Shown piece after piece: positions 10,869 to 63,811 of a DNA stretch of 64,000 nt (positions are counted from its first letter, which is position 1; the number at the start of each line of letters is the position of its first letter). The DNA lies in the NCBI GenBank assembly GCA_030272155.1, contig CP126197.1, positions 5,324,001-5,388,000 of the forward strand, read 5' to 3'. Source of the DNA: Tetradesmus obliquus. Lineage: Eukaryota > Chlorophyta > Chlorophyceae > Sphaeropleales > Scenedesmaceae. The notes below the pieces were generated by a model, which saw only the letters and a list, made by a program, of their open reading frames with translations, made no database searches and had not been told where the DNA came from. The translations under genes were made by a program, and so were the position numbers.

Positions 10869-13800
10869 TCAAAGAGCACATACGCCCGTGGCAAAGTTGC
10901 AGGCTCCGTCTCTGCTGCAGCAGATCTTCTGTGAGGGGTTTGCAGGGTTGGGGCAAATCCTGGACACCGCACAGCACACAGAGCCGTACAGGCACTCCTC
11001 AACAGTACCAGCCGGCAGGGTTTGGCAGCATGTTGAACCGCAAACCTCATTCTTCGGCGCCGCACAACACAGTGACATGCCGCTAGCTGACATAATGCAC
11101 CTGCCGACGTTTGTAGTCGCCCCTGCTGTCCCTGCAGGCTCGCAGCACGTGAGCGCAGAACCGATAACAAGCTGGTTGTTCGTGCCAGTCGGGTAGCAGA
11201 TGTCAGCTTGCGGCGAAAGGCAGCACTTCTGGTTGTTGACGCAAGAGGCTCCTAGCGCGCAGCAGTTGCCGTCGCCTTCACAAATGACTCGGCCGTTCTC
11301 GCAGCATGCGGCTACTGCTACTGGTGCGGTGGTGGCCGTTCCTGGTGTTGTTGCTTTGTAGCAGAACTCTGTGTCTGGGTTGCAGCAGCGCACAGTTGCG
11401 CCTTGCACGCACTGGCCGCCTTTTCGACAGCACCGCGTACCCTGCAGAAGTGTATGCAGCAGCAGCAGCAGCAGCAGCAGCAACAAAGGTGAGCAACCAG
11501 CTCCCAGATCAGCTGCTGCAGCTCATCACTGACAGTAAGGCACACCGCCTGCCATGTCACTGGTATCTTGTCAACTTTCTCTTGAATGACGCTCGTGCCT
11601 CTGATCCAGGGTGAGCTGCACCTTGCAGCACGCAGGCAACAGCGCCTGCACCACATGCAGAGATCTCTAGAGGCCTCTGCTGACTCTCAGCTGACAGCTT
11701 GCAATCAATTGCAGCCCCCTGCTTCTAGCATGGTATGATCCATGCACTGCTGCTGAATTGGAAGACCACGAATGCACCAAGCCCGCACATATGCAGACAC
11801 AGCTTGCTGATCCTGTGCGAGCTAGAGTGTTTGCTGTTTGCTGTTGAGCAAGCGCACGCCAGCTAGAGTGTTTGCTGTCGAGCATGCGCATTGGCAGGCT
11901 ATATTCTCACTGCTTACCGTAGTTGGCAGCGTGACGTTGACACAGTCTGTGTTGACCGGACACAGGCTCATCGGGCCTGCTCCCTCAGCTGGTGTGGTGC
12001 CGCCACTGACTGTGCACCGCGGGCCGGCTCCGCAAAAAGGTTGGTTGCCGGTGGTGGCGTTGTTGTAACACACATCAGCATCGCAGCAGCCCCACATGCC
12101 ACAGCAGACCTGCCAAGGGCATGCAGCAGTAGCAGTAGCACCTGTAAGATCAGGTCAGGTAGATGCGCATCACCTGCTTCGGCTGTTGCTGTGATGTGCT
12201 GCCTTGGGCCACACGCGCCCCTGCCCACTACAAGCACAACAACATTCAAGCAATCGCCTACTTGCCAGCAGCAGCGTGCTAAAGAAGAATGCAACAGTCA
12301 CGTTAGCATTGTGCATTTGCACAGCAAATGATGAGCAGCGCGCAGCAGCCGCACCTGGCCCCGCCCGCAGCAGGAGGGCTAAACAAGGCGCATGGGGTCT
12401 ACACAACACTCAAGACAGAGGATCAAAGCCTCAAAGAATCCGAACCCTCAGCAAGCTCTGAGCCCAGCAGCAGCCCCCACCTGGCCCCGCCTGCAGCAGA
12501 GGGCCAAACACGCTCAGGGAATTATCAATATATCAAGACAGAGGATCACAGCCTCAAGAATCCAAACCCTCAACAAGCTCTGAGTCCAACAGCAGCCCCA
12601 CCTGGCCCCGCCCGCAGCAGGAGGGTTAAACAAGGCTCATGGGGTTCACAGCATACCACGACAGAGGATCAAAGCCTCAAAGAATTTAAACCCTCAGCAA
12701 GCTGTGAGTCGTCCAGCAGCCGCACCTGGCCCCGCCCGCAGCAGGAGGGTGGTTGGAAGGGCTCGTGAAATAAACAAGGCTCCATAAATACATCAAGACA
12801 GAGGATCACAGCCTCAAGCTATGAGTCGTTCAGCAGCCGCACCTGGCCACGCCCGCAGCAGGAGGGTGGCTTGAATGGCTCGTTGCGGTTGGCGCAGGGC
12901 TTGCACAGCGCGTCGTTGACATCAGGGTACTCGATGATGCTCACTGCAGCAGCAGCAGCAGCAGCAGCAGCATCAGCATCAGCATCAGCATCAGCAGCGG
13001 TGCATAGCAGATGGAGCAGATGGCGGACGAAACACGCAGCTGCAGCATCAGAGTCTTCAGGCGGCTGCGGCTCGGCCCTTGCTCAGCAACCACGCAGCCA
13101 TGCACACCTACAGCCAGGCCTCAGAGTGACAGCCCGAGCTGAGCTGCTTGCAGCTTCCTACTTTACCAGGTGTCTGTGGTGGCGTACGCCGCATGAAAAC
13201 ACCGTGCAACCCCTCTACCTCTACCTACAATCAGGCAACAATGTGTTGATGGTTTGAGCGTGACTCAGCCAAGCAACCTGCATCCCATCAGCTTGCCAGC
13301 TACAGCTGCTTACACAAGGCTCACAGCACCGCCAACGCCTGCTCGAGTGCACTGCACTGCTGCAGGAGGCACAGGCGACACCAAGCCATCCCAACCTGCT
13401 GCACAAACAGCAGCCGCCAGGCCCTTATGCATAACTGTTAAAAACAACCCACTCACCGCATGCGGTGCGTGTGGGGTTTGAAGTGGTGCCATCTTGGCAG
13501 CGCCTGCATGCAGCGCTGCCCACTGGCCCTCCTGGGCTGAACCAGCCCAGCACGCACTGCACACAGAGTGCCGGCTGCCGCATGGCTGCTCCGTACCCTG
13601 CATGCGCAAGCGCAAAAGCAACACACATGCACACAACAGCACGTGATGAGTTTGCATACATAGTGCTGGCTGCCGCACGGCTGCCCGTAACCTGCATGCG
13701 CAAGCACACGAAGCAACACACAGACAAGAGCCCACGATGAGTTGGCACACACAGCGCTGGCTGCCTCACAGCTGCCCCGTAACCTGCATGCACTGGCCAA

Positions 13801-14733: not shown

Positions 14734-14776
<43 letters not shown>

Positions 14777-15454: not shown

Positions 15455-18216
15455 CTACTGCTCCCGCAGCATGCTGCTAACATCGTAGCCGCTTTTGCCG
15501 CTGCTGAGAGCACGAGCACGGCCCGGCCCGACCTTCTTGAGCACCATCCAACCCAGCAGGGGCAGGTACTGCATGAGGTAGGCTGCAGCAATTGCAACAC
15601 AAGCGATGCAGCGGCAGTCGCAGCAGCAGCAGGACTCAGCACAGCACTCGAAAGTCAATCTGATCTTCATGCAGATGCCATGCAGTAGCCATCCTCGCTC
15701 ACAGGCGTGATTTTGCAACAATCCTGCAAACACGATCTCATGGTAATGTCCTCACCCATTGTCAGCACTGGCTGCTTTGCAAGCCATGCTTCCTCAACTC
15801 CAGCCGCCATTGCATTCGCCATCAGCTGCACTGCCCTGGCAGGTGCCATGCGGCGCTTGTCCTGCTGCTCCAGCCTGCTGATCTTGCCGTTGGGGCCAAA
15901 CAGCACGCGCGGCGTGTCTGATGAACTGCCGACAGGGCCGGGGCAGACGACTGTTACGCTGATGCCCCTGGGGAGGCAGCGGCAGGGCAGTGCAGCAGAC
16001 AGGGAGGCTCAGATTTGCAGCAGTGCATGATCACACACATACACAGTCAGGCTATCAGCCTTGTGGCATGTTGCAGCGAGCCTGCATATGAAGCGGGCAC
16101 AGCAGGTTCTTGGTTGTTGCAAATGCATGGCTCCTCCACAGCCACCGCAGCCAAGCTTGTGTTCCTAGCCCGCCAGCTCGCCAGCAGATCCTCAACACAG
16201 CTGCACCCCACCCCATGCACTCAGCTAATTGTCATACCATTCATCAGGCACATCTCCATGCACGCTTGCATGCATGTGTTGTCTCTGCCCTGCTGCAAAA
16301 GGAACTGGCATTCAAGCTGGCAGTGCCATGCGTGACAAGGGTTCACTGCCAAGAGAGGAACAAAGCAGATAGCGCACTGAACAGCAGGCACTCTAGCAGC
16401 ACCACCACCCAGCTCACTTGTCCGCCACCTCTGTTGCCAGTGATCCGAAGTAGCCCCACACCGCCATCTTGGCAGCAGAGTACACGGCCTGGCCAGGGGA
16501 GGGCACCTTGGCAGCCATGGAGGCCGTGACAACCAGGCGGCCCTTGCCCCTGCAGCATACATGGATAAACACCAACTTATTGCTACAGCTGATTTGCAAC
16601 AAAGTGCAGGTCAGGCACTGACCAATGGCTGCAGCGCGCTGCAGCTTTGCACGGATCGATGCTGCAGGCACACAGGCAAGCAATACACACAGTGAACCAC
16701 AACAATGCTTGCATGCGTTTGACTGCAATACCTCTGTCAACAACATGTGAGGAATGTGCAAAGCAGAAGATGGCCACAGAGTGCAAACGTGCTGCAATGG
16801 TTGCAATGGTGTGTGCAGGGGTGCAGCCTCACCGCTTCAGCATGTGTGGCAGCGCTGCCTGTGTGAGGCGTATGGGTGCCAGCGTGTTGATGTCCAGCAG
16901 CTGCTGCGCCACCTCACCAGTGGTCTCAGCCGCCAGCGCATGCTGCGAGGCGCCTGCAGCCAGGCAGCGAGGCAGGCAGGCAGCCAGGCAGCCAGGTAGG
17001 CAAAGGTGCTGTCAAAACAGGCGCCAAACATCACCAACAGACCACACGTACATGCGCGTGCTCAGCTGCTGAGTACATAGCTAACGGCTCGCAACTGACT
17101 GTCGTGCAGTTTGGTGAGCATGCCACCTCGCCGCTGTCTCAGCCGCCAGTGCATGCGGCGAGGCGCCTGCATCCAGGCAAGCACAAGAGGCACTGGTTCC
17201 CTTTGCAAAAGGGCGCCATATATAATCAACAGACCAGGCGTAGATGTGCATGCTCAAGCGCTGAGTACACATCCCACGGCTCGTGGTTGACTACCCTGGA
17301 GGTTGGTGAGCAAGGCCTGCTGCCTTTGCAGGTGCATGGCCCCCTGGCAGCCCCGTCAAATCTCATGGCAAAGAAGCAAAAAGAAGCAGCCCCACAGACA
17401 CCGACCACACATCCTGACAGCCCAAGCACCGCGTGATGTCACCTGTCATCTGCAGCAGTTCTCAAGGCTAACATCAACACACAACATGTGAGGCTTGCTG
17501 AGACACATCGCCTTGCAGCCATACTGCCTCGCACCTGCATTGTGTATCAGGAAGTCAATGCCTGCACCGCCGAACGCACCATCTGCTGCCGCTGCTGCTG
17601 CTGCCAGGTCAGCCTCTGGGCCCAGCAGGTCAAAGGGCAGCACCAGCACTGCTGAGGGGTCCGGGCAGGCCTCCTTGACCCTCTGGATGTATGGATACAT
17701 GGTGAAACAGCAGGCAGACAGGCAGGCAGACATTAGCGTATGTCAGTCAGCACACAAAGTGGCAACCCTGCAAGAGGGTCTGACGTGGCCCAGCAGGTCA
17801 AAGGGCAGCACCAGCACTGACGAGGGGTCGGGGCAGGCCTCCTTGACCCTCTGAATATATAAGTATGTGGTGTAACATCAGGCAGGCAGGCAGGCAGGCA
17901 GGCAGACATCAGCATATGCCAGTCAGCACACAAAGTGGCAGAGCCTGCAGGAGTGTCTGCTTCAGCAACACGACCATCTATTGTCTGTATGTGTGTGATG
18001 CAGTTGCGGCATGTTCAGCCAGCGTTCCCCATGCTGGGCTGCAGCAGCCCTGCAGTAAGCAGTGGCCAGTCAACCAAGCGGGCTGTTGACACTTAACACT
18101 TTGCACGCCCACAGGCGCGCACCTGCAGCCGCTCTGCGCTGCGTGATGACAGGATGAGCCGGGCGCCCTGCCCAGCCAAGTACTTGGCAAGCGCCTCACC
18201 AATGCCCTGCAGGGCC

Positions 18217-18278
<62 letters not shown>

Positions 18279-18477
18279 CGAGCCCTTGATGTTGGCTCAT
18301 AAGGCGCCTGCTTACAGCTGCTGTATTGGCTGCAGTGCGGCAGCTTTCGCGCCTGTGATGGCATGTGCAGCATGGGCACCCTCCCTGTCATCATTGGCAT
18401 GCCTTCAGCTGCTGTGCATCATCAACCGTACTACATTCAAGCAGCAACAACAATACTGCAGTAAACACTGCCGCCGC

Positions 18478-18514
<37 letters not shown>

Positions 18515-19179
18515 GCTGTTGGCGGCAACTATCCCACATTCTTGCCTGGCTAGCGCCTGTGATCCAGATGACCTTGCCCCTGAATGCATCCGGCTTGTGC
18601 CTGCCCCGCAGCAGCAGCGCCAGGTCAGCATCTGCTGACATTAGGCCATACAGCGCAATGGCGGTGCCAGTGGCGCTGACTGTTACAAATGCCACCAGCG
18701 CACCAACCCAGCCCAGCCTGCAACACCAAGGAAGGATAGGTGTGTAGCTCTTGCAATTGGGTTCTGAATATGTGGGCAGCACATAGTGCTGTGATGCAGT
18801 AAACTAGTTACGCCGCCAGTCGCGACAGAGCACAGGCAGGAGGTGGATGCGGCTGTATATTAGGTGACAGATGATGCGTAATGCTCCAAATGTGTCCAAA
18901 GGCAGGTGTTCTGTGTGTATTTTCTGTAGTGGCAACAGAGCGCCACTGCAACGAATCGCAAGCAGCACCGGTGTGTTAAAAGAGCAGGTGCATTACACTA
19001 CTGCCAGCTCACCCTGCAGCTGCATATCCAAGGGGCTGTGCTAACGGGCCTAGTGAATCGGCGCCCAACTGCAGCAGCTGCCCTGCCCCATGCAGCAGAG
19101 CATCCTGCCGGGGGCAGAAGTAGCCTGCTATGAACGCTGTAACGGCAGCAGGTACTGCTAGAAAAAGGCCACAGCACAT
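15455..19179 (-). CDS. Short-chain dehydrogenase/reductase, DHRS7-like, membrane-anchored
   Basis: Eight exons splice in phase: 19179-19013, 18717-18546, 18206-18123, 17682-17535, 16953-16833, 16549-16418, 15967-15756 and 15582-15455, giving 387 residues. The N-terminus has two hydrophobic segments (residues 2-20 and about 59-80), suggesting ER anchoring. Classical SDR features follow: the NAD(P)-binding TGASQGIGE (109-117), split by a GC-AG intron; NAG (189-191); and the catalytic Ser241, Tyr254 and Lys258 in AVYSAAKMAVWGY. The post-catalytic CPGPV loop and a 130-residue C-terminal part resemble the DHRS7 / 11-beta-HSD-like group, oxidoreductases of steroids, retinoids or lipids; the substrate is unknown. 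The start at 19179 precedes the first TM; an in-frame Met at 19419 is less likely. Exons 4 and 5 have decayed duplicates in the adjacent introns. Confidence 0.88.
17124..17170 (-). repeat. Decayed copy of SDR exon-5 acceptor and 5' edge
   Basis: In gene sense, GGATGCAG|GCGCCTCGC, then a degraded CATGC(A/G)CTGGCGGCTGAGAC, repeats the true start of exon 5 at 16953. It lies about 210 bp upstream in the same intron. Confidence 0.8.
17785..17852 (-). repeat. Decayed copy of SDR exon-4 5' half
   Basis: A near-identical duplicate of the true exon 17682-17617 (RVKEACPDPS...LPFDLLG) lies about 170 bp upstream in the intron. It has scattered substitutions, and its acceptor CAG has become CAG-less (TTCAGAGGG). 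A (CAGG)n run (17879-17905) flanks it. Confidence 0.85.
18218..18278 (-). repeat. (CTG)n at the 3' end of SDR intron 2
   Basis: About 20 CAG triplets on the + strand read (CTG)n in gene sense, ending CTTGGCCCTGCAG| at the exon-3 acceptor (exon start 18206). It occupies the pyrimidine-tract position. Confidence 0.85.
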
Positions 19180-22197: not shown

Positions 22198-25100
22198 CTA
22201 TGGCCTGCGTGGCAGCTCTGCGCTCCTCCTCCTGCTGCTAGGCATCCGCAGCAGCACAGGACTGCCCTGCGCACCAGCAGCAGCACCACCAGCTGACTCA
22301 CCCCCACCCCCTGCCCCAGCCACAAAGCTTGGCCTTGGGCCATCCATACTGTGGCGGCGTGACATGCTGGCGGCACCAGCTGATCCATACACACCCCCAA
22401 AGCTGAAGCTGTTGCCCAGTGCTGCATCTGACCCCATACTGGTTGCTTCTCCACCCCATACGTTGTATCCAGATCCCGCATGTGCTGCTGCTGCTGCTGC
22501 GCCGCCAGGTATGTCGATTGCCTGCGCTGCGGCGTCGCAAAAGTCACCCGAGCCCACGGCCTGCTGCTGCCCTGCCAATGCAGCAAACGCAGAGTCAATC
22601 GCATCTCCCGGCATGTCTGCAGCACCAGCACCAGCGCCAGCCGCATTTGCTGCTGCGCCTTTCGCGCCTGCTGCCGCAACAGCTGATGCCATACGGCCCT
22701 GCAGCGTCTTCAGGCCTGCTACAGCCTCGCTTGCTGCTGCAGCTGCAGCAGCACCCTGACCGGGATCTGCGTCAGCCAGCGCAGCAGCAGATGGCAGCAG
22801 TGCCGCAAGTGCCTCACTGAGTCCCCTTGCTGCTGCCACAAAGTCCGGAGTCAGCAGCAGATTGCTGCTAGCTGCTGGGGAGCCGGCTGCACCTGCAGCA
22901 GTGCTGCCATCTGCAGCGCCGCTGCCACCTGCTGCTGCTGCTGCTGGAGTGAGTGCTTGGCTGGCTGATGAAAATGCACTCAGTGCTTTGCTGAGCGCCC
23001 CTGCAGCTGCCAAAACATCTGTCCCCAGGCGCCTGGTGGTGCTTTGCCGCCGCAGCATGCGCGCAGCATCTGCACCACCGCCGCTGCCTGCTGCTGCTGC
23101 TGCTGCTGCCGCACCCTGCCCAGCATCCCAACCAACTGGCAGGGAATGGCCAGCCAGCGAGCCACGCAAACTGCCCCGCTCAACAGATCCGACTCGCATC
23201 GAACCGCCAGACCCTGCCGCTGCTGCTGCGTCATCGGCATCGTCCTCTGCTACTGACGGCAGCGCTGCTGTAGCTGCCTCCCGCCGCAGCTGCAGGCTGA
23301 AGCTGCCATGCAGCGGCAACGAGGATGCATCTGGCAGAGGCCCTCCGGAAATTGCATTCAAGGGACTTGCGCGAGGGCTGGGCTGGAAGCTGCGGGCCCC
23401 TGCTGCTGTCCCTTGCTGCGCTGTATGCTGCTGCTGCTGCTGTTGGAACATCTGGCTGTCAGGTGGTGAGGGTGATGCAGCTTTTGGGGAGCCCACAGCC
23501 GGCAGCTTTTCCAGCCACATGCCTTTTTTGAAGCTGCTGCCAGAAGCAAGAAACCAACCACTAGATGGCGCTCCCGCAGATCCTGCGGCCGCATTCACAG
23601 CAGCAGCAGGGGCAGCGCCAATCCCAGCAGCAGCAGCAGCAGCAGGTCCTGCACTGCTGCCGAGTAAGGCAGCAGCTGCTGCTGCAGCTGCTGCTGAGGC
23701 GCTGCCACTTGGCACAAAGCCAGAGGGCCCTGCTGCTGGCAGCAACTCGATGCTGCTGCGGCTCACTGCTCCCACAATGCTGATAGGCAAGCTAGGCACA
23801 TTCTTGCCTGGCATGCTTGGTGCGCTGCGCATGCGGGCAGCACCTTGCCCTGCTGCTGCTGCTGCTGCTGTTGCGTCAGCTGCTGTTGCTGCAGCCGCCA
23901 CCTCTGCAGCAGTGTCCAGTAGGTGTGAGTGCACCGGGGCAGTTGCACAGTGGTGCAAAGATGTGCCGGATGGTCCTCGCTGTACCGTGAAGCTGCCGGC
24001 GTCATTGCCGGACTGCTGCTGCTGCTGATGCAGTTGAGTGAGTGCTTGAGGGTGTCCTGCAAGGACCTTACGGAAGCTGCTCAAGCTACTGCCTTCGTAC
24101 TGATCAAGCGTGTGTGCTACAGCCTCTGCCGTCAACGGATCGTCGTCATTCTGGATCAAAACCTCGTACGTGTGGTGGTGCCGCACAGATAAGCAGTTTG
24201 ACAGCGATCCTGCGCCGCCTGCTGCTGCTGCAGCTGCTGTTGCCGCTGCCGCCTCGCGCTGCTGCTCCCGCTGCAGGTGCTGCAGGTACTGTGCTGCAGC
24301 TGCTGCGTCTGCTACTGCGCCGCCTGCTGCGGCCTCACGTGCAGCATGTGACAAAGCCCTGGCTAAACCGCCAAACCCTACGCGTGCATTTGGCTGCTGG
24401 CAGGTAGGGCAGGTGGCATGGGAAGCATCTGCAGCAGCAGCAGCAGCAGCTGGAGGTGACATTGCAGCAGCATCAGCTGGAGGTGGCATTGCAGCAGCAT
24501 CAGCAGCAGCTTGAGCAGCAGCAGCAGCAGCCTTTGCCTCTGCTGCTGCAGCCGCCGCTGCATCCTCATTCCTCTGCTGCTGAGCTGCAGCATCTGCTGC
24601 CTGCTCTGCTGCTGCCTCCTTGGCTGCTTCAGCAGTTGCTGCTGCTGCGTCTGCGTCTGCCTGCTGCGCCTGCTGCTCTGCCTGCCGCTTCTGCAAGCGC
24701 TGCATGGCGATATCCTCCAGCTTGTCGACCACCTGCACAGTCCAGCGAACATTGTCAAATCACAGTTGGTCATTGCAAAACAGGTGTAGGCCAGCACACG
24801 CACACGTGCAGCTACATGTGCAGCTACTGGTCACTGTGCACCCAACTGAATCACTGCACAACTCTACTCCTGCTCCTGCTTCATGCGATGTGCAGCCAGC
24901 TCACCTCGCGCATGCTGGGCCGGTCCTTGGCGCTGTATGAGCCGCATGACCACACCAGGTCCTGCAGCGCACGCGGTGGCTCCTCCTCACCACCAACCCT
25001 GCAGGGCAGCAGCAGCAGCAGGACACACGCAGTCCACCATCAGCAACCACCGAGACGCTGCACACCCAGACACTGGAAACACACTCCACAATCACAACCC

Positions 25101-27422: not shown

Positions 27423-27471
<49 letters not shown>

Positions 27472-27840
27472 GCAAGACATTACACAGGCTACGGGGCAGC
27501 AGCTTCACAGCCACGCTGTGGCCCGCGTACTCGCCTGACGCAGATGCAGCAGCAGCAGCCAGGCAAAACAATCAGCGGTTGCAGGACCTTTCACAAGTTG
27601 CTACACTCTTCTCTCACCATCATCGACTGCACTCCTGCTGCAGCTGCTACAGCTGTAGCTTTGCACCTGGCACTGACATTACTGCTGCCCGGCCGCCCAC
27701 CGCCAGGCTGCTGCGCCCAAGCACCTTGTGCTGCTGCTGCCTTGCACAAATAAATTGCAAACAAAGCACCTGCTGCGCTCACCCTCCTGCACGACCGCCC
27801 GGCTGCCCCGCCCCAGCACCTTGTCCTGCTGCAGCCTGAA

Positions 27841-27880
<40 letters not shown>

Positions 27881-29142: not shown

Positions 29143-30556
29143 GTGATGTTCAAGATCAGGATGTGCTGGTAAATTTCGTCAAACTTTTGCTGTAATGAAA
29201 GCGTACATGGGCTCGAGAGATGTGAACGTGTCGTCGAGCTTGATAGGCAGCACCAAGTTTGGGTATTGCTGTCAGTCTGGAGAGCATTTGATCAAAATTA
29301 TGCTTTCAGACGTATCACGGCCTGGCACACGGCAACGTGCACAGCATAAACTTCCGACACAAAGATGCGGAGTGTAAGAACGGCAGCCAACCCAAAGCAA
29401 CCTGCCTACAGTCACTGATAAACTCGCGACTCAGGCGTCGCATCAGGCTAACGAGACCCTTCAACGCCCACCAGCGCCACCACTGGCCAGCACGCGCATG
29501 ACTAACACAGGTGACAACAGTCAGCCTCGCTCTCGTCACATACTACGGGGTGTCTCATGAATGTGCATAAACCAAGAACATTGCAGATCTTTGCTGTTCT
29601 CGTCACTCAGGTAAGATCGGTGTACTGCATCACGGCAAGGCAGTACACGTGCTGAGTTTCAATACTTTGCAGCCAAATAAGCTGAGGCTGCGCAGCAGCT
29701 GCGGCCCAAACATGCAGAGCTGGCATGCAACCAGTCACCAAGTTAACAAAGCGTGCCTATCTGCAGGCGGCGCACTCGCAGACAAGCTTGCAATGCTTTG
29801 GTCTATGTTTTAGGGTTTCCAGACATCAGTGTGCGTGCAGCTGCTAGTGACCCAAGCAGCAGACTGCGATAGGCCCAAGGGGCATGGCTCTGCATGAGCA
29901 CAGCAACGCTACCATCAGGTGCATGGCTGCTGCTGTGTGCACCAACTGGGGCCATTTATATATATCAAGCACTGCTCAACTCAGCACACATTCAACGCAG
30001 AGGCATATATGTATGTGACGTATATACGGCATGCTGGGACAGCGACACGGTAGAGTTGCAGATGACAACATGGGCCTGTCCCTCACGCCCTATACTCTGC
30101 AGATACCTGCCCAGCAACTGATGCCTGCATGTAGCAGGCTGCAGCAGGCTGCTGAAGTCCGCCCGCTACCAGCCAGCAACAGCAAGAAGCCCCTCGTTGC
30201 TGCGCCGCACAGATCCTGGCGGCGCACAGCCCAGCTAGCTTGCTTCCGGCACAGCTGCAATCTACAGCTCCAGAAGCAGATCACCCTGAGTCAGGTTGAT
30301 AATGGTGCCTGCTGCTGTCTCGTGCACATCCTGGCTGCTGCTGCACCCCCACAGTACTACACTCCTTCAGCACACATTGTGCATCGAGCTGGACCTACGA
30401 TACAAGTGCTAAGAGCCGGCAAAAAGTCCAATGGGGGCCGACTTTCAAACCCTAAGGTCGCAAGCTCACTCCTGGGTCCATGCACTGCAGCCCCAGGGGA
30501 GCGCCATGTGGGACATGCAATAGCACAGCAACGCCACATCTAAGGCATGCCATGCC
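29143..30556. other. Intergenic region, no supported gene
   Basis: It holds the kinase promoter/5' UTR and the 3' flank of the F-box/LRR gene. No coding or structured feature was recognised. A short TA-rich stretch (29955-29966) is the only compositional landmark. Confidence 0.45.
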
Positions 30557-40664: not shown

Positions 40665-49009
<8,345 letters not shown>

Positions 49010-50556: not shown

Positions 50557-52182
50557 TCATGCCGTGCGCGGCTGCGTCACTGTGACTGTGTCGCCCACGC
50601 TGATGGTCCCCTGCTGCAGCACTGCGGCGTTCCAGCCGAAGAACACGTTGTGCGTCCACGACTTGCGCTGCGCTGCCCAGCCCAGCACCTTGCCGCTCCT
50701 GCAGGGGTAACACATATAAAACAACACACAATTGTCATGAGGAAACCGCTGTTGCTCACTCCCTGCCATGCAGCAGCACGCAGCAGTCAGTGATATATTG
50801 TGCCAGCAGCCCAGCCCAGCACCTTGCCACTCCTGCAGGCAGCAGCCGGCAGCAGCCACGTTGTTTGGCAGCCAGGGATCACACATCAGAGAGTATCACA
50901 CAATCGCGAAAAGGAAACAGCTGTTGGCAATGGGTCTTGCCTCGCAGCACCATAACCCCATGTGATATGTGCCCCAGCGTCACCAGCGGCTCCTTCCCCT
51001 CCTCGGCAGGTGTCCTGGTCGATGATTGTCACTTTGATTATGCAGCACTTGGGACAAAACGAACTCTAGTTGGCCTAAGTGCAACAGCATCCTCACCTGA
51101 ATTGACCAAGAGTCACTAGCGGCTCCTTTCCTTCCTCCGCAGTCTCCTGGTCAATCGTTGTTACCTTGCAGCGGCTGCAGGGCTTGACATATGACAGCTG
51201 CACACTGCCGACAGCCACATCACCCCACGCATCATCTGCCCAGGCGCCCCCTTCAAACCCCGCCAAAACCACATTTGGCCGAAAGCGGTTCATGGGCAGG
51301 GGGCTGCTGCCGCTGCTTGACAGGTGGCTGTTGAGATCCTGCAGGTTTTCCTGCAAGTATGCCAGCATGCATGTGAACAAGCAGTACAGCGGCGGTGGGC
51401 GGTAGATTGCGTGCTTGCAGGTGATCAGGTGGTGGCAGGAGCGGTTGTCCGGTGCTTAAAGGGTTGCTGCTGTGAGTGCCAGGCAGCTGGCTAGAGCTGG
51501 TTGCAGTGGCACTGTTCCAGGTGGGCAATGCAGCCACCAAGCGTTGAAGATAGTATCATCATGCATTGACTGCAGGTATGCCTGCCAGCACGAGGTCAAG
51601 GGACTCCGCACATGTACAGGGGGCTGTAGGCAGGCCTTGCAACTGTTGCGCTCACCTCGCAGCTGACCAGCAGCGGGTAGCCGTCTGCAAACTTCACCGC
51701 ATGCCCGGGCGCAAACTCGGGGTCAGTTGGCCGCACTGTCTGAGGCAAGCCAGAGGAGTGCAGGTGCCTGCAGCCGCAGCACCGACAGCACGAACAGGAT
51801 GCACCAGTAAATGAAGATGCGGCAGCATAAGGAGACCAGAGAGCAGCATACGTGCTGCAGTGTCAGCTTTGCTCAGCGCGCTGGAGGCGTGCAGCTGAGG
51901 GGCCGCGCACATGTCACAGCCTGCCAGCTAGCCAGAAGACTGCAGTGCAGAACTAGCAGAAAGCAGCTGACCAGCAGCCTGCTTGCATAGACTGCGAGGC
52001 GCTTCATCATGGCCAGCTGATTCTGACAGCCAGCTGCACCCACCAGCATGTGTTGCAGGCGCTGCCAGCGCTCACCTGACCAGCCGCACAGGCTGCCCCA
52101 GGAACTTGCTGAACCAGGCGGCTGCCTCGTCACCCTCGTCAGCAGCAGCACCAGACCACTCCCACACCGTAACATTCCTGTT

Positions 52183-52217
<35 letters not shown>

Positions 52218-53103
52218 TGGTGCAACAGCAGACACCACAGAAACAGCCGAACAGGTGCAGCATGGGCCTCTGGACCTCAAGCCGAAACTGCTGCGGCAGC
52301 AAGCAGAGTAAAGACGGCAATCAGCATGCGCTATCAGCACATTTGCACTGCAGTTCTTCCCTGCGGTGTTGCAGGGACGTTGCTGCGCTGCGCCAAAGTC
52401 GGAGAACAACCTTTGCACCACACACGTCTTTCAGCGCAACCAGAACTGTGACAGCACACTGCCTGGCCATTCAACTCACTTGAGTTGTGAGAGGCCGCCA
52501 AACTTGATACCAGTGCTTGCACTACACACACACCTACAGCACAGCCGGATCTGTACCAGCACGCTGCTAGGAGGCTCACTTGAGCTGAGCAGGTGCTGCG
52601 GGGGCAGCAGGGTCTGCAACTGGCACCACACACAAGCTTACAGCACAACCAGAACTGTGACAGACGCTGCTAGGAGACTCACTTGAGCTGTGCGGGTGCT
52701 GCGGGTGCAGCAGGGTCTGTGAGGGGCACCTGCAGTTAGCTCATGCACCATACAAGCCTACAGCAGAGCCAGAACTGCGACAGCAGGCTGCTAGGAGACT
52801 CACTTGAGCTGTGCGGGTGCTGCGGGTGCAGCAGGGTCTGTGAGTGGCACCTGTAGCTGGCTCATGCCGGGTGCTGACACCACCAGGGCTGCACCGGGCT
52901 GCAGCTTGCCCCAGCCGGTTGCCAGCAGCGCCTCTGGGGGCAGGCTAACACACACCTGCATTCGGTTTGAATTTGAATTTAATAAACTGTGGTTTGCACT
53001 TTGGCCAGCTACTTTGGGCAGCCGCAGATGAACCGTGTCTTGCCGTACACAAAGCAGCAACGGCAATGTGGATAGGGCTGCAAGCACGGCTGTGCGCCGC
53101 TGC

Positions 53104-53145
<42 letters not shown>

Positions 53146-53787
53146 CCACCGCACCTGGCATAGTTTTGGGATCTGCCGCTGCGTGAGGAACTTGCCACTG
53201 TCTGCACGCACCACCATCCAGTGGCGGTCGTATGGCAGGCCTGCATATTGCACAAAGCATGAAGAACATAGGCACAATACAATGTGACGATCTCACACTC
53301 TGCTGACTCGAAAGAGGTACTGATCACTCTGTATGTCCTGGTTACTACATGCTGTGATATCAAGACTCTTTGGGATGCATATCATGCTTGAACACGTTGC
53401 TGGCATGGGGCGCAGCCCTACTCTGCCCTGCACCTGTCTGTTGTCTGGTGTATCTGGTGATGCGTCCTCTGCTATTAGCTGCAGGACTGTAGAAAGAGGC
53501 ACGGCCACAAACCTTGCAGCAGCTGCTTGCACAATGATCAAGCAGGCAGCGCCAAACAACACCGCACACAGAGCAATGTGGAAGGCACCCACCTGTGCCA
53601 AGGCATGCTGCAGACTCCGCAGTGACAGGCTTGCACCCCTGAGCACACAGCCAGCGGCAAACGGGATCAGATGGGGCGTGAGTGCGACAGAACGTGCTGC
53701 ATACACACAAGTGGAGAGCAGATGCCAGGTGGCACAGCAGTTTACCTTGATGGGGTACACATTCAGCTGCTTCACTGTCACCGGCAT
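50557..53787 (-). CDS. MOSC-domain protein, mitochondrial amidoxime-reducing-component (mARC) type
   Basis: Eight exons join in phase: 53787-53746, 53638-53593, 53240-53155, 52955-52804, 52177-52076, 51767-51656, 51350-51097 and 50698-50557, giving 311 residues. The MOSC N-terminal barrel begins VKQLNVYPIKGCKPV and continues GLPYDRHWMVVRADSGKF and LTQRQIPK. The MOSC core has DPEFAPGHAVKFADGYPLLV, RFRPNVVLAGF and YVKPCSRCKVTTID; its Cys pair (238/241) includes the residue that binds molybdenum cofactor in mARC. mARC reduces N-hydroxylated compounds using cytochrome b5 and its reductase. No cleavable targeting peptide is seen; the N-terminus is short. Exon 7-8 edges and the exon-4 donor edge are copied in the introns. 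Confidence 0.9.
50815..51030 (-). repeat. Copies of MOSC exon-8 5' edge and exon-7 3' edge within one intron
   Basis: CTGCAG|GAGTGGCAAGGTGCTGGG (about 50817-50837) repeats the start of exon 8. About 50976-51030 repeats the exon-7 end (ATC(A/G)ACCAGGA..GGAAGGAGCCGCTGGTGAC). Thus both edges of the same intron were duplicated into it. Confidence 0.85.
52182..52216 (-). repeat. (CTG)n before the MOSC exon-5 acceptor
   Basis: In gene sense (CTG)11 runs into CTGCAACAG| at exon 5 (start 52177). A similar run (53106-53145) lies just after the exon-3 donor. Confidence 0.85.
52480..52735 (-). repeat. Two to three copies of the MOSC exon-4 3' edge (~110-120-bp period)
   Basis: Copies near 52682-52735 and 52568-52625 repeat ACAGACCCTGCTGCACCCGC to CAGCTCAA|GTGAG after the true exon end (52804). 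A shorter trace at about 52482-52495 keeps only CTCAA|GTGAG. Confidence 0.85.
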
Positions 53788-55893: not shown

Positions 55894-57426
55894 TCAGAAC
55901 ATGACCGTGCTGTCGGCGAACACCAGGTTATCATCCGTGATGTCGTGCACATGGAAACGCCGGATCACATCGCTGAACCCGTGCACCACGCGCCGCCCGC
56001 TCACATGGTTCCTCCTAAAGCAGCGTTCGAGCCGCTGCTTGTCCCACCCTTTCCAGGCCTCAAGCCTGCAGCCTAACCTCTCGAACTCCTGCAGCTGCAG
56101 GGAGAAGCCTTCATTTGGGTCCACTACAGGCCTGGCCTGCTGCACGTGGGCGAGTGCGGTGTCATGTGACAGCCGCTCGCGCCACATGAGGTAGCCGATA
56201 GCGATGGTGCCGCTGCGAGACATGCCCTGCGCGCAGTGCACCAGCACGGCACCTGCAGAGCAGCAACAAGGACAAAAACGAGGATAACAACATTGAGCAG
56301 AATATTATATTACTGGGACCGGCCTTGATGACATACCCTGTGCGCAGTGCACCAGCACGGCGCCTGCAGGACAGCAATCAACGTCACGGTATGGCAGCCA
56401 AGTAACAAGACAGTGAGTATGTTGGGCATGAGCGTGTGCAGGTGTCATGAGTGCTTTTCTTCAAAGAGCAGGTGTGCTGCGTGCCGCTGCGCGACACGCC
56501 CTGCGCGAAGTGCACCGGCACGGCGCCTGCAGGTTGGCAACGAGAACAAATCGAGGATGAAAACATAGAGCAGGACATTAGATTACTGGGACCGGTCCTG
56601 ATGACATGCCCTGCGCGCAGTGCACCAGCACTGTGCCTGCAGGACAGCGCGGCGGTTGGCCCAATAGCAGTGAAGCCTGAGTGCTGTTGATATTTGATGT
56701 GGTTGTGTCAGCACAGGCCGGCGTGTGCGCTGCTTGCATGAGACAAGCGTGCCAAGCATGCAGATGTGCAGGTGTGCTCGGAGCCTTTTTTATCACGGAA
56801 CACCTGCTGGGTGCAACAGCTGCGGCATGCAGGTACGCAATCGTACAAAGGTTCATGCCTCCGCTACAAATGGTAGCATGCAAGATTGGAATATAATTTA
56901 TTTGACTGAGACCATGTCTTTTGGACGTAGAGGCAGCTGTTGAAGTTGATTGCCTGTGGACCAGAGCACGCCCGTCGCCTGCTGACATGCTGCTTTCTGC
57001 TGCTGGTGCTGCTTGCTCTCCCTTCTCCTCACCAGAACTCCTGCTGTCTTCGATGAAGTCAAAGGCCTCCTTGAAGACTGCCACCAGGTCCTCATCCTCC
57101 TCATCGCTCACTGACAGCTTCTTGTAGGTGAACTGAGCAGGATGGCTGGGCCCCAGCTCTCCACCTGCCTGCAGGATATGAGTTATGCCAGCTGCCTGCA
57201 GTGCTGACAGGCAGCTCTCTGTCTCGCGGGAGCCGATGTAGAGGTGCCTCCTGATCTTTCCGGGAGGGTCTAGGCAGCGCTCCTCGTTCTGTTGCTCTGC
57301 TGCCTTGGGCTGCAAGCTCACTGCAGCTACGGGTCCCTCCGTGAAGCTGTCTGCGACGACATCAGCTTTAGCAAACAAACGGTCCCTGATGTGGTCGGTG
57401 GTGGTGGCTTTGGTGGCAGTAGCCAT
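55894..57426 (-). CDS. Dual-specificity protein phosphatase A (atypical DSP)
   Basis: Two exons, 57426-57033 and 56252-55894, join in phase to 250 residues. Exon 1 encodes the DSP fold start (HLYIGSRETESCLSALQAAG, ITHILQAGGE) and an acidic SVSDEEDEDLVAVFKEAFDF helix that should supply the general-acid Asp. Exon 2 opens with the catalytic P-loop VHCAQGMSRSGTIAIGYLM (Cys138, Arg144), followed by the conserved EGFSLQLQEFERLGC helix. A C-terminal extension (GWDKQRLERCF, HDITDDNLVFADSTVMF) is shared with the neighbour. Cysteine phosphatases of this class dephosphorylate pTyr/pSer/pThr; the substrate is unknown. The nearest better-spaced Met (57426) was chosen; an upstream in-frame Met gives an unlikely Cys-rich leader. 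Confidence 0.88.
56287..56650 (-). repeat. Three copies of the DSP-A active-site exon edge in its intron
   Basis: Near 56338-56372, 56496-56533 and 56598-56645, CTGCAG|GCGCCGTGCTGGTGCA or close variants repeat the acceptor and the codons around VLVHCAQGM upstream of the true exon (start 56252). A 45-bp intronic block (GGACCGG(C/T)CCTGATGACAT on the + strand) repeats with them. Two copies retain the catalytic His-Cys codons. Confidence 0.88.
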
Positions 57427-59490
57427 GGCGGTGCCGCGATGGTCCCGCAACAGCAACGACAACTTTCGAAACAGAAAAGAAGACAAGAGCAGGCAGCAAG
57501 CGCCGTCAACGTTCACGTACACATTCGATTCGTTTTCAAAAAGATAAACTAATCGAGACAAGGCGGGACGACTGGTTATGGAGGCCCCACATTTGACAGT
57601 GTCACTGTGTGCTGTCTGACAGATGTCAACCGACCCTCGGTTGCAAACCTGGCAGCAATGAACAGCACCTTGCACAGAAAGTTGCCGATTGCATTCATTA
57701 CAACAGCACCTGCTCATTGGCACTGGGCTGCAATGAAACCTGTGTAGTACTCAAACTGTTTACAAGGCCCCAGTCCTGCTACATCACAGGTGCTGATGAT
57801 GGTGGAGACTGCGTCACATGGCCCTGCGGTGGCATGCCACATTGTCCGAACTTGGCAGACAACTCTGTACTGCAGTCGCATTGGATTCAGCACCTCCAAA
57901 AGCTGAAAACACTCGGCATATAGGTACATACACAGTTCACAACAAGCGGTACTACTTCTACAATAGCCTGTCAGGTAGACGACAGGCGGCCCTTCTATGG
58001 GCAACACAACTTATACTGATCACCAATATACATCACACTCTCACATGACCACAAGTATACCAACATCATGCACGAAGTTTGTTGACTCAAACTTTGTGAA
58101 CTCCGCAGGTCAGATATTAGCGCATCTGCAATTGACACCACTCAAGCACCTGTTGTGCCGTGCACGGCAAAATTGCATTCGCCAGTGCCAGCAACTATCA
58201 CACCACTTTGAACTACGACAGTAGCCGCGCACGCACGCACCAGCAACCACCACATAACACACTCAGACACTTCCAGCAGCCTGACCTGCTGCTTGCAATC
58301 AAGCAGCAGGGCCATGTAAAGCCACCAATTGGACCAACATGCACACTGACAAGCACGCCAAAACCGCACAACCGAATCATGTGACTTCCCTGAGTCTGCA
58401 GTGACTCGTGCAGTGACTCGTGCAGCATGCTGTCTGTAACAATCTTACACACTTTCAAAATTGGATGGAGCAGCTGCCGCTTGCCTTCCCCTTGGCAAGC
58501 TGCACGCATGCATATGGTGATGCAGAGGACTGACAGTATGGACGAAGGAAAGGGCCGTCCCATGCTGCTGCAAGATGACACAACAGGTGCCAGATGCTGC
58601 CGCAACACGGCAAGCGGAGACCCAACAGAAGCAATGCAGGACAGCTGTTGGTAAGGTACAGGCATAATGGAGAGAACACATGTATCAGACGCTAGGCACA
58701 GCCCACACAGAATCAGCAGACACCAACTAAACTCTCTTCAACTGCTGCATAACTTTCTTCTCAGCTCGTCGCTCTTCTCAGCACCAACAACAACAGAAGC
58801 AAGCAACTTCCAATTGCTCCACTAATACTACTCATAACCACCTTCAGTAGCCACCAGCTTCCTGGGAATCACCCACACATGTATCTGCTGTCATTACTAG
58901 CACCCACAACTCACTACGCAGCAGGCAACTGCAACGTGTGCAGCTGCAGCTTCAGTAGCTCAGCGGCCCCCTCATCTGTACATAAGCACGCATTTAGTAC
59001 CAGGCATTGCTGCTGCAGACAGTACTAAAGACAATGGTCCAAGCACACACACACATGGCGTTATGTGAGCTTATTGGTCCCAGCCAATACACCACAGCTT
59101 CGTCACAGAAGCTGCACACACATCAGCATAAACACAGCATGCCAAATCATGTTCAGACAGCAGTAGCTGGACAGGCCCGTCCAGCTGCTTGAAATGGGTG
59201 CTGGAGGTACCCCTGCTGTACTGTTCATGCTGTGTGTTTCCTCGTGCACAGGAGGGTGCACTCACACACACTGCTGCTTCATTGACAATACAAGCGTGGT
59301 GAGCTGGGTGCCCACATGGGAGTAATGTACACACATGATACACGTTGTTGCAAGCAGGTTGCACTTTGCTTGCCTCCAAGGAAGCATTCTGCACGCCAAT
59401 GCACCTGGATCACTTGCAACCAATAGCCTCACTGCCGCGCTGCTACAACGCCTTTTCCTGCAACCTGTTCGCATGCTGTTTGCGTGCTGT
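57427..59490. other. Spacer between tandem phosphatase genes, no supported gene
   Basis: No coding signal. A short direct repeat, GCAGTGACTCGT x2, lies near 58399-58425. Confidence 0.45.
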
Positions 59491-60489
59491 TCACAGAATG
59501 ACCGTGCTGTCGCAAAACACCAGGTCATCATCGCACACGTCGTGCACATGGAAGCGCCGGATCAAGTCCGCCATGCCATGCACAGCCCGGCGGCCGCTGA
59601 CGCTGCTGCTCTTGAAGCAGCGCTCGAAGCGCTGCCTGTCCCAGCCAGCCCATGACTCGCAGCAGCAGCCTAATCTTTCAAACTCCTGCAGCTGCAGCCG
59701 AAAGCCCTGGTTGGGGTCTGCAATGGGGCGGGCCTGCTGAACATGGGACAGCGCTGTTTCAATGGAGAAGCGTGCGTGGGACATGAGGTAGCCTGTGAGG
59801 ACTGCGGCGCTGCGGGAGACGCCCTGCGCGCAGTGCACGAGCACGCCGCCTGCGGGAGGGGTGGAGAAGGGGCGAGGACGAAGCAGCAGTTGCAGATGTG
59901 AGCGCACTACAGTTGACGACTTCAAATAGGGCCTCAGGCAGAGCTGCAAGTCAAGTCGTAAGAAAATGCGGATGATACGCAACAGAGATATGCAGCATTG
60001 GCAGCACCTGATGTTGTACCATGGCAGCACTGACGTCATGTCAGCTGCATTGCAGCTGATTAGTCAATAACAGCACCGCAGTGTCACACAACAGCATTGC
60101 GGGCACCACCACTGCCGCTGCTCACCCGACATCCTGCCCTCATCGATGAAGTCAAAGGCCTCCTTGAAGACTGCCACCAGGTCCTCATCCTCCTCATCGC
60201 TCACTGACAGCTTCTTGTAGGTGAAATGTGCAGGGTGGCTTGGGGCCAGCTCAGCACCTGCTTGCAGGACGTGCGTGATTCCTGCTGCCCGCAGCTCTGC
60301 TAGGCTGGCCTCGGTCTCTCGAGAGCCGATGAAAAGTCCAGCGCGCAGCTTGCATGGCGGGTCGCTGCAGGGTGCGGGTGCGGGGCTCCTCTTCACGAGC
60401 AGGGCCAAGTGATGTACCTCGACAGCATGCTGCTTGGAGCGCCACCGCTCCTCGAGGGTGCTAGTAAGTACTGCAACTGTGGAAGCCAT
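59491..60489 (-). CDS. Dual-specificity protein phosphatase B (tandem paralogue of A)
   Basis: Two exons, 60489-60126 and 59849-59491, join in phase to 240 residues. The intron sits at the same position and phase as in phosphatase A, and exon 2 has the identical length of 359 nt. The catalytic loop is VHCAQGVSRSAAVLTGYLM (Cys128, Arg134). The blocks TYKKLSVSDEEDEDLVAVFK and LQLQEFERLGC are the same as in A, and it ends HDVCDDDLVFCDSTVIL. The N-termini differ. This is a clear tandem duplication. The intron here is clean: no active-site-exon copies, unlike A. Confidence 0.9.
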
Positions 60490-61945
60490 GGTGTGAAGTG
60501 CTCAGCGCAGCAGAACCGGCCAAACTGCAGAAAACACGTGTGCGAGACTCGAAGCAAATGTGTCGAGACGCCAGGTTTCCTGCAGCTGCGCACGTTCTAC
60601 TTTCGATCACTTCATGAAAATGTGTAGGGTGGTTGGTCAGAGGCCGTGTGCGCATATATATGGTCACAATAAGAATGACAAGGGCAGCTGACGAGGATGT
60701 CAGACTGCAGCCGTTGGCATCAGCAGCACAACAATAAACGCAAGATGACTTCTCCCAGTGGTATCTTTGTTGCTTATGAGTGATAGGCCTCGACTATGGC
60801 GATGCTGCCACATTACGAACGATGAGTTCGTAAAGTTCCGCAGCCCAACCATGTCAACGAAGTGGTCTCATAAACATGTTTTACAACCTGTTGATTTCCT
60901 TGTTCAACGGCACATCGCTGAAGCCAATGCCACAGCTAGGCCATCAGAGCAACTGCCACTGCCAGTCTGGCAAAGTTCTGCCAGTGCTTTTCAAAACAGG
61001 CACATCTTAGGGAGCTGCCGAACGCCTGTGATTTTTACCACTTACTCTTTATACTCATCCCGCACGCTTATAATGTGGACATGGGCGTGCTGGGTTTGTG
61101 GAGGCTGAAACCACGGACAAGGGCTATGCACTGAAGGCGCCATGGCTGCATGGCAACACCAATACGGCGCTGCATGGACCCTCTAAATGATTCTGCAGTT
61201 ACACAACCCCACTCCCGCAGCTACTACGCTTACAGAGCAACAGAACACAGTGAAGCATCCAAGAGACCCAAACAGTAGGGTGATGCCGCATCACCAGCGG
61301 CTGCTGGCAGCTATAGCTGCATACATGCAGCCGCTCAGGCTGCCATGCCCGGGCCGGGCCACCCTGCACTATTGTTGCTCCATGCCTGCCGCTGCTTACT
61401 GATGGAGCAAATGAATCAGCGAGCAAGGCCAAAGTTTTGGCACCTTTGCCTGAAACTGTGGGGCCTGCAGCAAGAAGAGCACATGGCTGATACAACATCC
61501 CTCGAGCTGTGCGTGCAAGCCAGCACGCCGCCCGCTGCTGAGAAACAGGCACTCCATGTACCTACACTATTTCACATATTGATCAGGCCATAACAAGTCC
61601 CTGAGCCAGTCGTCACAGGCTGCTTCACACAATGAACATAAGTCATGGACAATAAAACACAGCAGCATCCTAGTGCTGCGGTATGGGCATGTTGAAGTAC
61701 AAAAATGTAGGTGCAACTATGGCACCGATAGTGAAGTTGTTGATCGAAAACTAGAACTGCAGCAGTGCTCATCCCAGACAAAAGACGTGTGTGAACAGCT
61801 TCTTGAACAGATCACAGCGCGTATGCCGCTGCCTCTGCCATACAATCACCTATAAAAATGCAGCGTCACGCTCCTCACCGCCCACCTCCGACCATTTTTA
61901 TTGTTGGGCAATATGCAGCATCATCAATTCCTGCAAGATTTCTGC
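60490..61945. other. Intergenic region, no supported gene
   Basis: Nothing beyond the promoter side of phosphatase B and the 3' flank of the M16 gene. A TA-rich TATATATGG near 60653 lies about 165 bp upstream of the phosphatase B start, in the minus-strand promoter region. Confidence 0.45.
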
Positions 61946-63811
61946 TCACAGCGGCAGGCCCAGCCCAGTGAAGCGATTTTCCTCACCAAACACCTGCCCA
62001 GCCACCTCTGCCACCTCAGGCCCCCTCAAACTGTCCACATCAGCCAACTCCTGCAGCACGCCACGCCAGCTGCCAGTCACCGAGTGATAACTCGCCAGCA
62101 GGCTAGACATGCTGCCGTTGCTGGTCAGCGCAGACAGCAGCGCGGCACGCGCGGAGGCTTTCACGCGGCCGAGCTCTGCGGGTGTGGGGCCATCTTGTGC
62201 GAGGGCGTCCAGCTGCTGCTGCAGCTCAGTGCTGAAGCGCTGCATGTCACCGCCTGCAGGACATGACAGAACGGTGGACACATGTTGGCAAGTTGGTATC
62301 ATGGGTACCCAGCAGAGCTACTGGCTGTGTCTACACGGCTCGCATGGCCCAGTTTCAGGTGTTTGACAAGGTACCTGACGCATAGTTGATCCTCGTCCTT
62401 CTCCATCATCTATCAGGGCTGGTGTGCTGCATCCTGTGCTGCTGTCCCTGCTGCCTGCCACCAGTTGCCCACAACAAACTGGACAAGTTGTGACAAACCT
62501 CTCCTCACCTGCTGGCGGCACTGCAGTCACCAGGCTGAGCCCCGAGTGCAGGTCATCTGGGTACCCCACCTGCTGCCAACAGCAAACAGCAACCCCATGC
62601 TATCAAACAAACACACATTCAGCCTCACCTGCTGGCGGCACTGCAGTCACCAGAGCCAGTCCCGGGTGCAGGTCCCCTGGGTATCCCACCAGCACGCTGG
62701 CAGACAGGCAGGAGCCGCGCAGCACCAGCTGCTTGATCAGCCGCGCGCTGCGGCCGCCAGTCAACACGTCTGCAGCCACCTGTGGATGCAGCAACAAGGT
62801 GCAGTGCACAGGAAGGACAGGAGACGTTTGACACCTGTGTTGCCAGCTGCTTGCAGAGCATAGGCCTAAACAAGAGCGTAAAACACAGAATGCAATGTTG
62901 CTGTTACTTCATGTGACGGGAAGTGAACACTGCATGCATGGCAGGTGTCTGCTGTAACAGTGTGCCAGCAGGCAGCAGCACAGCGACCCACCTCCATGGC
63001 TGTGCCGCGCCTGCCTGTGACGCTTGGCCGGTAGTACCCCATCACCAGCAGTGGCCCTGCTGCAGTGCGCTGGCTGAACTCCCGGCTGCTGCTGCTGCTG
63101 CTGCTGCTACCTGCCCCAGACCTGTCCCACACTAAGCTGCTGCTTCCATCCTGCTTGGTGCGAGTGCTGCCTACAGCTGAGGCAGCGCCTAGCTGGGCTA
63201 GCGGTGCTGCTGCTGCCACTCCGAGTGCAGCTACTGCAACACCAGCTGCTGCTCCACCCACTGCTGCTGGCGCTGCTGCTGCCACTACTGCCGGCTGTGG
63301 CAGGGGTTCTGCTGCCAGCCGCTGGATGCTGCTGTCGAGTGTGACTGCGCCTGCTGGCGCTGTCCAGCTGCCAAAATACTTTTCAGCCAGCTGCTGCACC
63401 CTGCCAGGGTCAACGTCTCCTACTACGCTGATGGTCAGGTTGGCTGGATGGTAGTACCTGCAGCATGCAGCACAAAATTGGCAGGGCTTGGACAAAAAGA
63501 AGCATACAGCAGAAGCGATGGGCAGGTGCTGCTGTGTCCTTTGCACATCACAGTATGGTCCCGTACATGGGCAGCCTGACGTCCCTGTTGCTCAGGCTGC
63601 TGCTGTGCGTGACGGAGCTGCCTGCCTTTGCTTGCAGGACACGCATACTTGGCCAGGGGAAATGCTGCAGCTGCTTATTTCACAAGTCGGTCAGTTGGTT
63701 GCACTCCACTGCTGAGGACTGTGCTGGCTGTGCCTTTCATAACCTGTCCTCACCTGCTGAAGAACGAAGCCACCTCATGGCTGCCAAAGCGGTCAAAGTC
63801 ATCAGCAAAGC
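61946..63811 (-). CDS. M16 (insulinase/PqqL-like) metallopeptidase, C-terminal part
   Basis: Four exons are visible: 63811-63754, 63457-62992, 62779-62629 and 62253-61946. The gene enters from beyond the window, so the HxxEH zinc site is not seen. The visible part starts in the first M16 domain: FDRFGSHEVASFFSRYYHPA, NLTISVVGDVDPGRVQQLAE and KYFGSW. It continues into the second: VAADVLTGGRSARLIKQLVL, LVGYPGDLHPG, then FSTELQQQLDALAQDGPTPA and ELGRVKASARAALLSAL. An Ala/Ser-rich insert of about 90 residues separates the two. Family members degrade peptides or process presequences in organelles; substrate and location cannot be told from this part. Confidence 0.85.
62506..62570 (-). repeat. Copy of the 3' edge of the M16 exon 62779-62629
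   Basis: In gene sense GGGTACCCAGATGACCTGCA to CCGCCAGCAG|GTGAGG repeats the exon end and its donor about 60-120 bp downstream (VGYPDDLHSGLSLVTAVPPA against VGYPGDLHPGLALVTAVPPA). A CAG|GTGGGG acceptor-like junction precedes it. Confidence 0.88.

Follow-up and report, generated by a model that had tools for sequence, protein, structure and literature searches.

Small tandem duplications formed by fill-in at staggered breaks have been described by Schimmel et al. (2021, PMC8355091); in the available part of that paper, the class has units of under about 100 bp in human and arises by Pol alpha-primase/CST fill-in and end joining. Other described systems, each as given in the accessible portion of its source, concern introns: in intron gain by AGGT tandem duplication a splice-site-like junction is duplicated and splicing hides it (PMC3443670, PMC4974935), introners or introner-like elements change introns genome-wide (PMC9860276), and direct repeats of 4-30 bp lie at or near intron/exon borders (Rogers and Bendich, 2025, PMC11782384). 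Here we describe introns that carry direct copies of the adjoining exon edge in Tetradesmus obliquus, starting from a 64,000-nucleotide stretch (the window) of a nuclear contig of its 104.7-Mb, 17-contig assembly. Part at least of these copies are contiguous head-to-tail duplications, mostly of 97-170 bp, across one splice junction.

The algal copies resemble the duplications of Schimmel et al., as far as the available text of that paper goes, in being direct, head-to-tail, local and free of any mobile element, and adjacent direct copies of a contiguous segment were found for many young pairs, but not for all copies. They differ in size and position, since the unit was at least 97 bp in 61 of 63 junction-spanning self-matches, spacings between copies were at least 91 bp, and the units lie on splice junctions. 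As in AGGT intron gain, a splice junction is duplicated and splicing hides the change; however, the algal copies sit in existing introns, which they enlarge, and no new intron was seen. In the three genes modelled by homology, copies lay within single introns bounded by homology-supported exons. No link of the copies to AG|GT junctions was found. The idea of a removable unit (exons ending in AG or starting with GT) was rejected, as neither comparison was significant (21/33 against 113/178, and 14/36 against 45/175). Unlike introners, the copies match the adjacent exon: in a random quarter of the non-adjacent introns of these three genes, 0/218 matched at a score of at least 20. The repeats of Rogers and Bendich also concern intron/exon borders but are far shorter than the algal units, with their exon edges of 25-96 nt copied at least 97 bp into the intron. 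Nor do the copies behave as minisatellites with many short units, since 46 of 73 copied edges carry a single copy; the ordinary variable-number tandem repeat arrays of the window (2064-2341, 3253-3621 and 35878-36429) have units of 21, 19 and 33 bp in 13-19 copies. We found no description of the pattern in the open literature, judged by titles and abstract starts, subscription papers lying outside that coverage.

Exon-edge copies and their extent

We probed exon edges with 60-nt probes, at a match threshold of score 20 or higher, in 27 gene models with 217 introns. Of 215 donor edges, 35 had copies in the intron that follows, and of 212 acceptor edges, 35 had copies in the intron that precedes. 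Control probes in the reversed direction gave 0/131 and 0/138 matches, and mid-exon controls 0/118. Probes taken from the introns themselves matched in 9/205 (first 60 nt), 8/205 (last 60 nt) and 19/205 (middle) cases. The three homology-based genes on their own gave the same picture, with matches at 10/33 donor and 9/33 acceptor edges and none for wrong-direction probes (0/22 and 0/25); a looser count, of matches above the best shuffle, gave 11/33 and 9/33 edges, 10/218 non-adjacent introns and 1/22 and 1/25 wrong-direction probes. Furthermore, self-alignment of these genes detected 34 local direct repeats (18 in MCM7, 9 in the kinase and 7 in MOSC), compared with 0 in ten dinucleotide shuffles of each gene, and 0 inverted copies. 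The exon-edge duplication reported by the first-pass annotation is thus real, and it extends beyond the window.

Three of the 27 models (MCM7, protein kinase and MOSC) have exons from spliced alignment to deposited or transcript-like proteins, and 24 are predicted. Sampling beyond the window covered 200 kb from preset round positions, together with 39 kb of sequence surrounding six further members of the MCM family. The gene finder, a calibrated semi-Markov model, recovered 15 of the 19 MCM7 exons exactly and called several copies as exons; 21 predicted exons duplicating a neighbour were taken out before counting. A first hidden Markov model finder and an uncalibrated semi-Markov finder drifted into tiny exons and were dropped. 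The 200-kb sample yielded 24 predicted genes, 16 of which were retained on exon number and coding score; a weak CAP model and one other window model were excluded on the same grounds. One gene, L021:5039-9860, is doubtful, as it resembles a repeat array read as exons. It is left out of the AG/GT junction and class tables, the intron-homology tests, the intron-part minimum, the gene clustering and the spacings, and is included in the edge counts, the list of copies, the simulations, the blast units, the shifted self-match, the array, codon, young-pair and unit-size comparisons, the per-gene counts, the uniform expectation and the intron lengths.

Outside the window, four of the six MCM-family genes had copies, as did 8 of the 16 genes retained from the 200-kb sample, and the habit is therefore common but not universal. 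Seventeen of the 27 genes carried at least one copy, and some had none across many introns (0/12, 0/11); copies clustered by gene (heterogeneity p 0.0005; p 0.025 within length strata). The MCM-family genes L031 and L034 showed no copies in 23 introns. An organism that is evidently related has a contig whose translated protein shows the kinase exon-4 donor edge a second time, 111 bp (37 residues) further downstream, with a score of 44 against 30 for the best of 500 shuffles; the habit is therefore not confined to this strain. A second cross-species candidate, the protein relative P0127, was not significant.

At the same threshold, the window genes contained 15 copies in MCM7, 11 in the kinase, 4 in MOSC, 2 in SDR and 4 in the M16/DSP stretch. 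MCM7 exons follow the model of another strain (P0003), which leaves out one disputed exon; for the kinase, nine exons were used, without the tenth that the P0121 alignment adds at the 3' end (19 nt). Percentages below are identities to the exon.

40665..49009, plus strand: MCM7 gene by spliced alignment, 19 exons, 15 exon-edge copies in introns
41746..41812, plus: exon-4 donor-edge copy, 93%, offset 177; an exon in deposited protein P0001
41868..41929, plus: second exon-4 donor-edge copy, 81%, GT lost
43562..43602, plus: exon-8 donor-edge copy, 85%, offset 128
44081..44140, plus: exon-9 donor-edge copy, 88%, offset 101; 6 of 7 differences synonymous
44604..44654, plus: exon-10 donor-edge copy, 92%, offset 112
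45344..45701, plus: exon-12 donor edge, array of 4 copies, spacings 91-118
46352..46553, plus: exon-14 acceptor edge, two copies (96% over 28 nt, 97% over 67 nt), offsets 245 and 110
47322..47374, plus: exon-16 acceptor-edge copy, 89%, offset 105
47794..47872, plus: two intron-16 fragments (of exons 16 and 17) not reaching a junction
48775..48842, plus: exon-19 acceptor-edge copy, 88%, offset 103
24461..29287, minus strand: protein kinase gene (deposited OEZ86_008132), 11 copies
25175..25338, minus: exon-7 donor edge, two copies, unit 106-121 bp
25646..25708, minus: exon-7 acceptor-edge copy, 92%
26482..26520, minus: exon-5 donor-edge copy, 79%
26791..26967, minus: exon-5 acceptor edge, two copies, 92% and 93%
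27494..27534, minus: exon-4 acceptor-edge copy, 95%
27688..27836, minus: exon-3 donor edge, two copies
28162..28353, minus: exon-3 acceptor edge, two copies
50557..53787, minus strand: MOSC-domain gene by spliced alignment, 8 exons, 4 copies
52580..52746, minus: exon-4 donor edge, two copies in a tandem array
50964..51035, minus: exon-7 donor edge, old copy, 80%; 12 of 13 differences at third codon positions
50806..50832, minus: exon-8 acceptor-edge copy, 27 nt
15455..18641, minus strand: SDR gene, predicted model; acceptor-edge copies at 17787-17850 and 17121-17166
55894..63811, minus strand: M16/DSP stretch, predicted, probably two fused genes; acceptor-edge copies at 56330-56636 and, 22 nt long, within 62629-62689
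34054..34564, minus strand: CAP gene tandem array, 94-bp unit, seen as a repeat

The Cys-rich gene likewise has a tandem array, with a 124-bp unit. MCM7 intron 1 (40720-40796) is apparently a GC-AG intron of only 77 nt. An 853-codon open reading frame (22198-24759, minus strand) in DNA rich in triplet repeats overlaps the kinase 3' end and is probably not a separate gene. Protein P0241 splices MOSC at the true junctions, and it appears to be transcript-derived, because its source contig is 1,639 nt long and holds a frame of 311 residues.

The earlier copy counts for MCM7 (about 15) and the kinase (about 10) are close to ours; the 5-6 given for MOSC exceed the number listed here. The claim of eight affected genes is borne out for five gene models and is plausible for the others, with CAP and the Cys-rich gene showing tandem arrays.

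Unit size and divergence of the two parts

We listed 117 copies, with a median identity to the exon of 0.92, and 98 of them came within 3 nt of the junction. The claim that duplicates almost always include the junction therefore holds across window and sample, and the two MCM7 intron-16 fragments are junction-free as stated. In all 98 junction-reaching copies, the distance to the true junction was at least 97 bp. The 92 successive spacings below 190 bp ranged from 91 to 177 bp, with an exon part of 25-96 nt and an intron part of 36-119 nt; intron parts shorter than 36 nt were found in 0/92, compared with 31.3 expected under uniform placement. The acceptor-side minimum fits the need for a branch point and polypyrimidine tract, and the donor-side minimum, 41 nt, is less obvious. 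Spacings divisible by 3 were rarer than expected (18/92; 5/26 in homology-based genes), and here either the gene finder may be biased or selection against in-frame retention may have left a trace.

Shifted self-matching of the 27 genes detected 63 junction-spanning, 23 intronic and 1 exonic segments, and none in shuffles of every third gene; many of the 23 intronic matches are, by position, copy-copy pairs of the same arrays. Units of 90-180 bp accounted for 8 of 10 intron pairs and formed the commonest class outside gene models (31/58). Units below 90 bp made up 4 of 87 segments in genes; among all 134 independent pairs there were 11, and 9 of these lay outside gene models. Acceptor copies lay upstream and donor copies downstream of the true exon, with no exception in the controls at score 20, and the intact exon stayed innermost. 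The first-pass annotation had read this arrangement as the mark of a special process; it follows from tandem-duplication geometry, as any junction-spanning tandem duplication gives both features.

Global alignment of 23 young pairs revealed whole-unit homology that, judged by eye, was clear in many, and the intron part was much more diverged and gapped than the exon part. Identity was about 0.92 at the exon edge and about 0.5 past intron position 6. In a locus-matched test, intron-part homology was detected for 13/40 single copies and 16/34 inner copies of arrays, counts that are lowered by the masking of CTG repeats. Among copy-copy pairs within arrays, the exon part was better preserved than the flank in 49 of 53. 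Moreover, in four near-exact units the homology runs on for 50-67 bp past the unit itself, which argues that arrays expand via the shared exon part; one further near-exact unit is in the doubtful gene. We take these results to mean that exchange between copy and exon followed duplication.

Probable origin of the copies and possible junction anchoring

We favour, with belief and doubt about evenly weighed, ordinary small tandem duplications that are filtered by splicing and whose exon part outlives the intron part. This account starts from the geometry, the unit size, the occurrence across the genome sample and the greater intron-part divergence that we observed; its origin step, splicing filter and exchange are inferred. 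Small contiguous tandem duplications, mostly of 97-170 bp, would arise locally in the T. obliquus genome, possibly through breakage and fill-in at staggered breaks as known from other systems. When such a duplication spans a junction, the intron would gain a second exon edge with its splice site and 36 nt or more of intron sequence, and the protein would stay the same; selection would remove exon-internal duplications and those with too little intron part for the true splice signal. The intron part would then decay fast, while the exon part would stay recognisable longer, the true exon being held constant. The exon part may also be preserved because copies come from diverged alleles or because they exchange sequence with the exon by gene conversion or unequal exchange, and further exchange would let the arrays grow. 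When allelic divergence was put under coding constraint and introns were given a high indel rate, with both settings tuned, simulated random duplications approached the codon pattern and the flank loss; with these tuned parameters, a survival filter and faster intron decay explain part of the placement bias.

Several results weigh against this account. A plain null with uniform placement and neutral copies gave a codon-position ratio of 1.5 compared with 2.4 observed, and about 0.9 intron matches per edge match compared with 0.25; the purely neutral simulation was rejected on this misfit. The high indel rate of the tuned simulation contrasts with near-complete blast units, which show about 0.1 gap per substitution. 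Among the 21 outermost array copies, just one had intron-part homology, and such homology did not fall with rising exon divergence (4/12, 2/17, 5/15, 3/17); therefore, either exon divergence is no clock, as would be the case under exchange, or a large number of the copies arose otherwise than by simple contiguous duplication. The 97-bp floor on unit size finds no explanation under ordinary duplication, and an excess of junction-spanning over intron-only events remains.

That excess bears on a mutational hotspot, in which duplication-prone breaks near splice junctions (e.g. at R-loops or paused polymerase) would flank a protected zone and yield junction-centred units; we regard this as a serious though rather unlikely alternative. 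When exon copies were masked and only intron sequence was used for detection (score 24), tandem homology was found in 6/31 single-copy and 11/28 multi-copy introns compared with 3/147 copy-free introns, and in homology-based and MCM genes alone in 2/16, 7/18 and 0/68, respectively. The expected junction share is 0.25-0.30, so that uniform placement corresponds to 0.34-0.42 junction events per intron-only event. Junction events outnumbered intron-only events by 6 to 3 for single copies (p 0.011-0.024) and by 17 to 3 with arrays, whose growth inflates the excess (p 4e-8 to 4e-7); at score 28, p was 0.029-0.055 for single copies and about 1e-6 to 1e-5 with arrays. Near-complete blast units were 25 junction against 6 intron-only, where 0.63 to 1 is expected, and the lengths of the exon and intron parts put the junction near the unit middle. 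The gene-to-gene heterogeneity also fits a hotspot. However, the single-copy excess is modest, a splicing filter can by itself give the intron-side minimum, exon parts below 25 nt are hard to detect, and the same unit sizes occur outside gene models. A random distribution of duplicates, which the first-pass annotation had named as refuting its proposal, is thus rejected for the intron-side breakpoint, and for junction against intron-only events the rejection is weak without arrays and strong with them. Anchoring at splice sites is suggested, not proven, by the lack of short intron parts and the excess of junction events.

The drop in identity beyond intron position 6 would be expected if only the exon edge and splice consensus were copied as a splice-bounded block, through templated insertion or some RNA-templated process, and 8 of 12 outer or single copies with less than 5% exon divergence have no detectable intron-part homology. 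Yet other young pairs show clear whole-unit homology, and CTG masking hides some of the intron homology. Templated insertions usually include inverted copies, and the three self-aligned genes have none. We therefore consider block copying improbable.

Selection maintaining the copies as redundant splice sites, proposed by the first-pass annotation, or as regulatory ones, is very unlikely. The copies show mild coding-like constraint: single-copy edges have 138 synonymous to 97 non-synonymous differences, beyond neutral drift, third-position GC is 0.803 in copies and 0.805 in exons, and copy-specific differences are 81 synonymous and 128 non-synonymous (39%, compared with 27% expected if free). 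Exchange between copy and exon, or allelic divergence before duplication, would explain this. The copied GT or AG was retained in 82 of 98 copies, about as predicted by 92% identity (0.92 squared, 0.85), with donors below this expectation (37/50) and acceptors above it (45/48); overall, copied splice sites are not specially preserved, and selection for redundancy is therefore unsupported. In-frame stops in 10/117 copies and frameshifting gaps in 30/117 also speak against it, as does the lack of association with AG/GT junctions. The MOSC exon-7 copy is among the most coding-like without having any donor, and its constraint therefore does not come from the copy's use. What survives of the earlier interpretation is recurrent local tandem duplication with a junction-spanning excess over uniform placement; direction and the intact exon do not point to a special process, and redundant-site selection finds no support.

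An assembly artefact has a negligible chance of explaining the copies. Nothing in its favour was found, the copies differ from their exons by a median of 8%, and the protein of the evidently related organism has its own kinase exon-4 edge copy, 111 bp downstream.

Annotation and intron growth in Tetradesmus obliquus

The copies mislead gene finders and corrupt annotation. In the deposited MCM7 protein P0001, 21 residues are repeated in tandem because the intronic exon-4 copy (41750-41812) was counted as an exon; the T. obliquus models P0002 and P0003 lack this repeat, which is likely an annotation artefact.

Copy-bearing introns are also longer, with a median of 454 (64 introns) compared with 283 without copies (153 introns), and of the 89,158 intron bases about 15,400, roughly 17%, belong to duplicated units when the farthest copy offset is summed per edge. 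Mean intron length is 462 bp in T. obliquus compared with 230-302 bp in three other Sphaeropleales, according to the available part of PMC5966456. Since copy-bearing introns are longer and the units make up this share of intron bases, junction duplication may be one of the main reasons why T. obliquus introns are long, and intron growth through this route becomes directly countable. A bolder proposal, which we hold to be doubtful, is that a mutational process of the Scenedesmaceae makes junction-centred tandem duplications of at least 97 bp, that it is a main engine of intron growth and that recurrent exchange keeps the copied edges coding-like. If true, intronic DNA in this family would be under indirect coding constraint through exchange between copy and exon.

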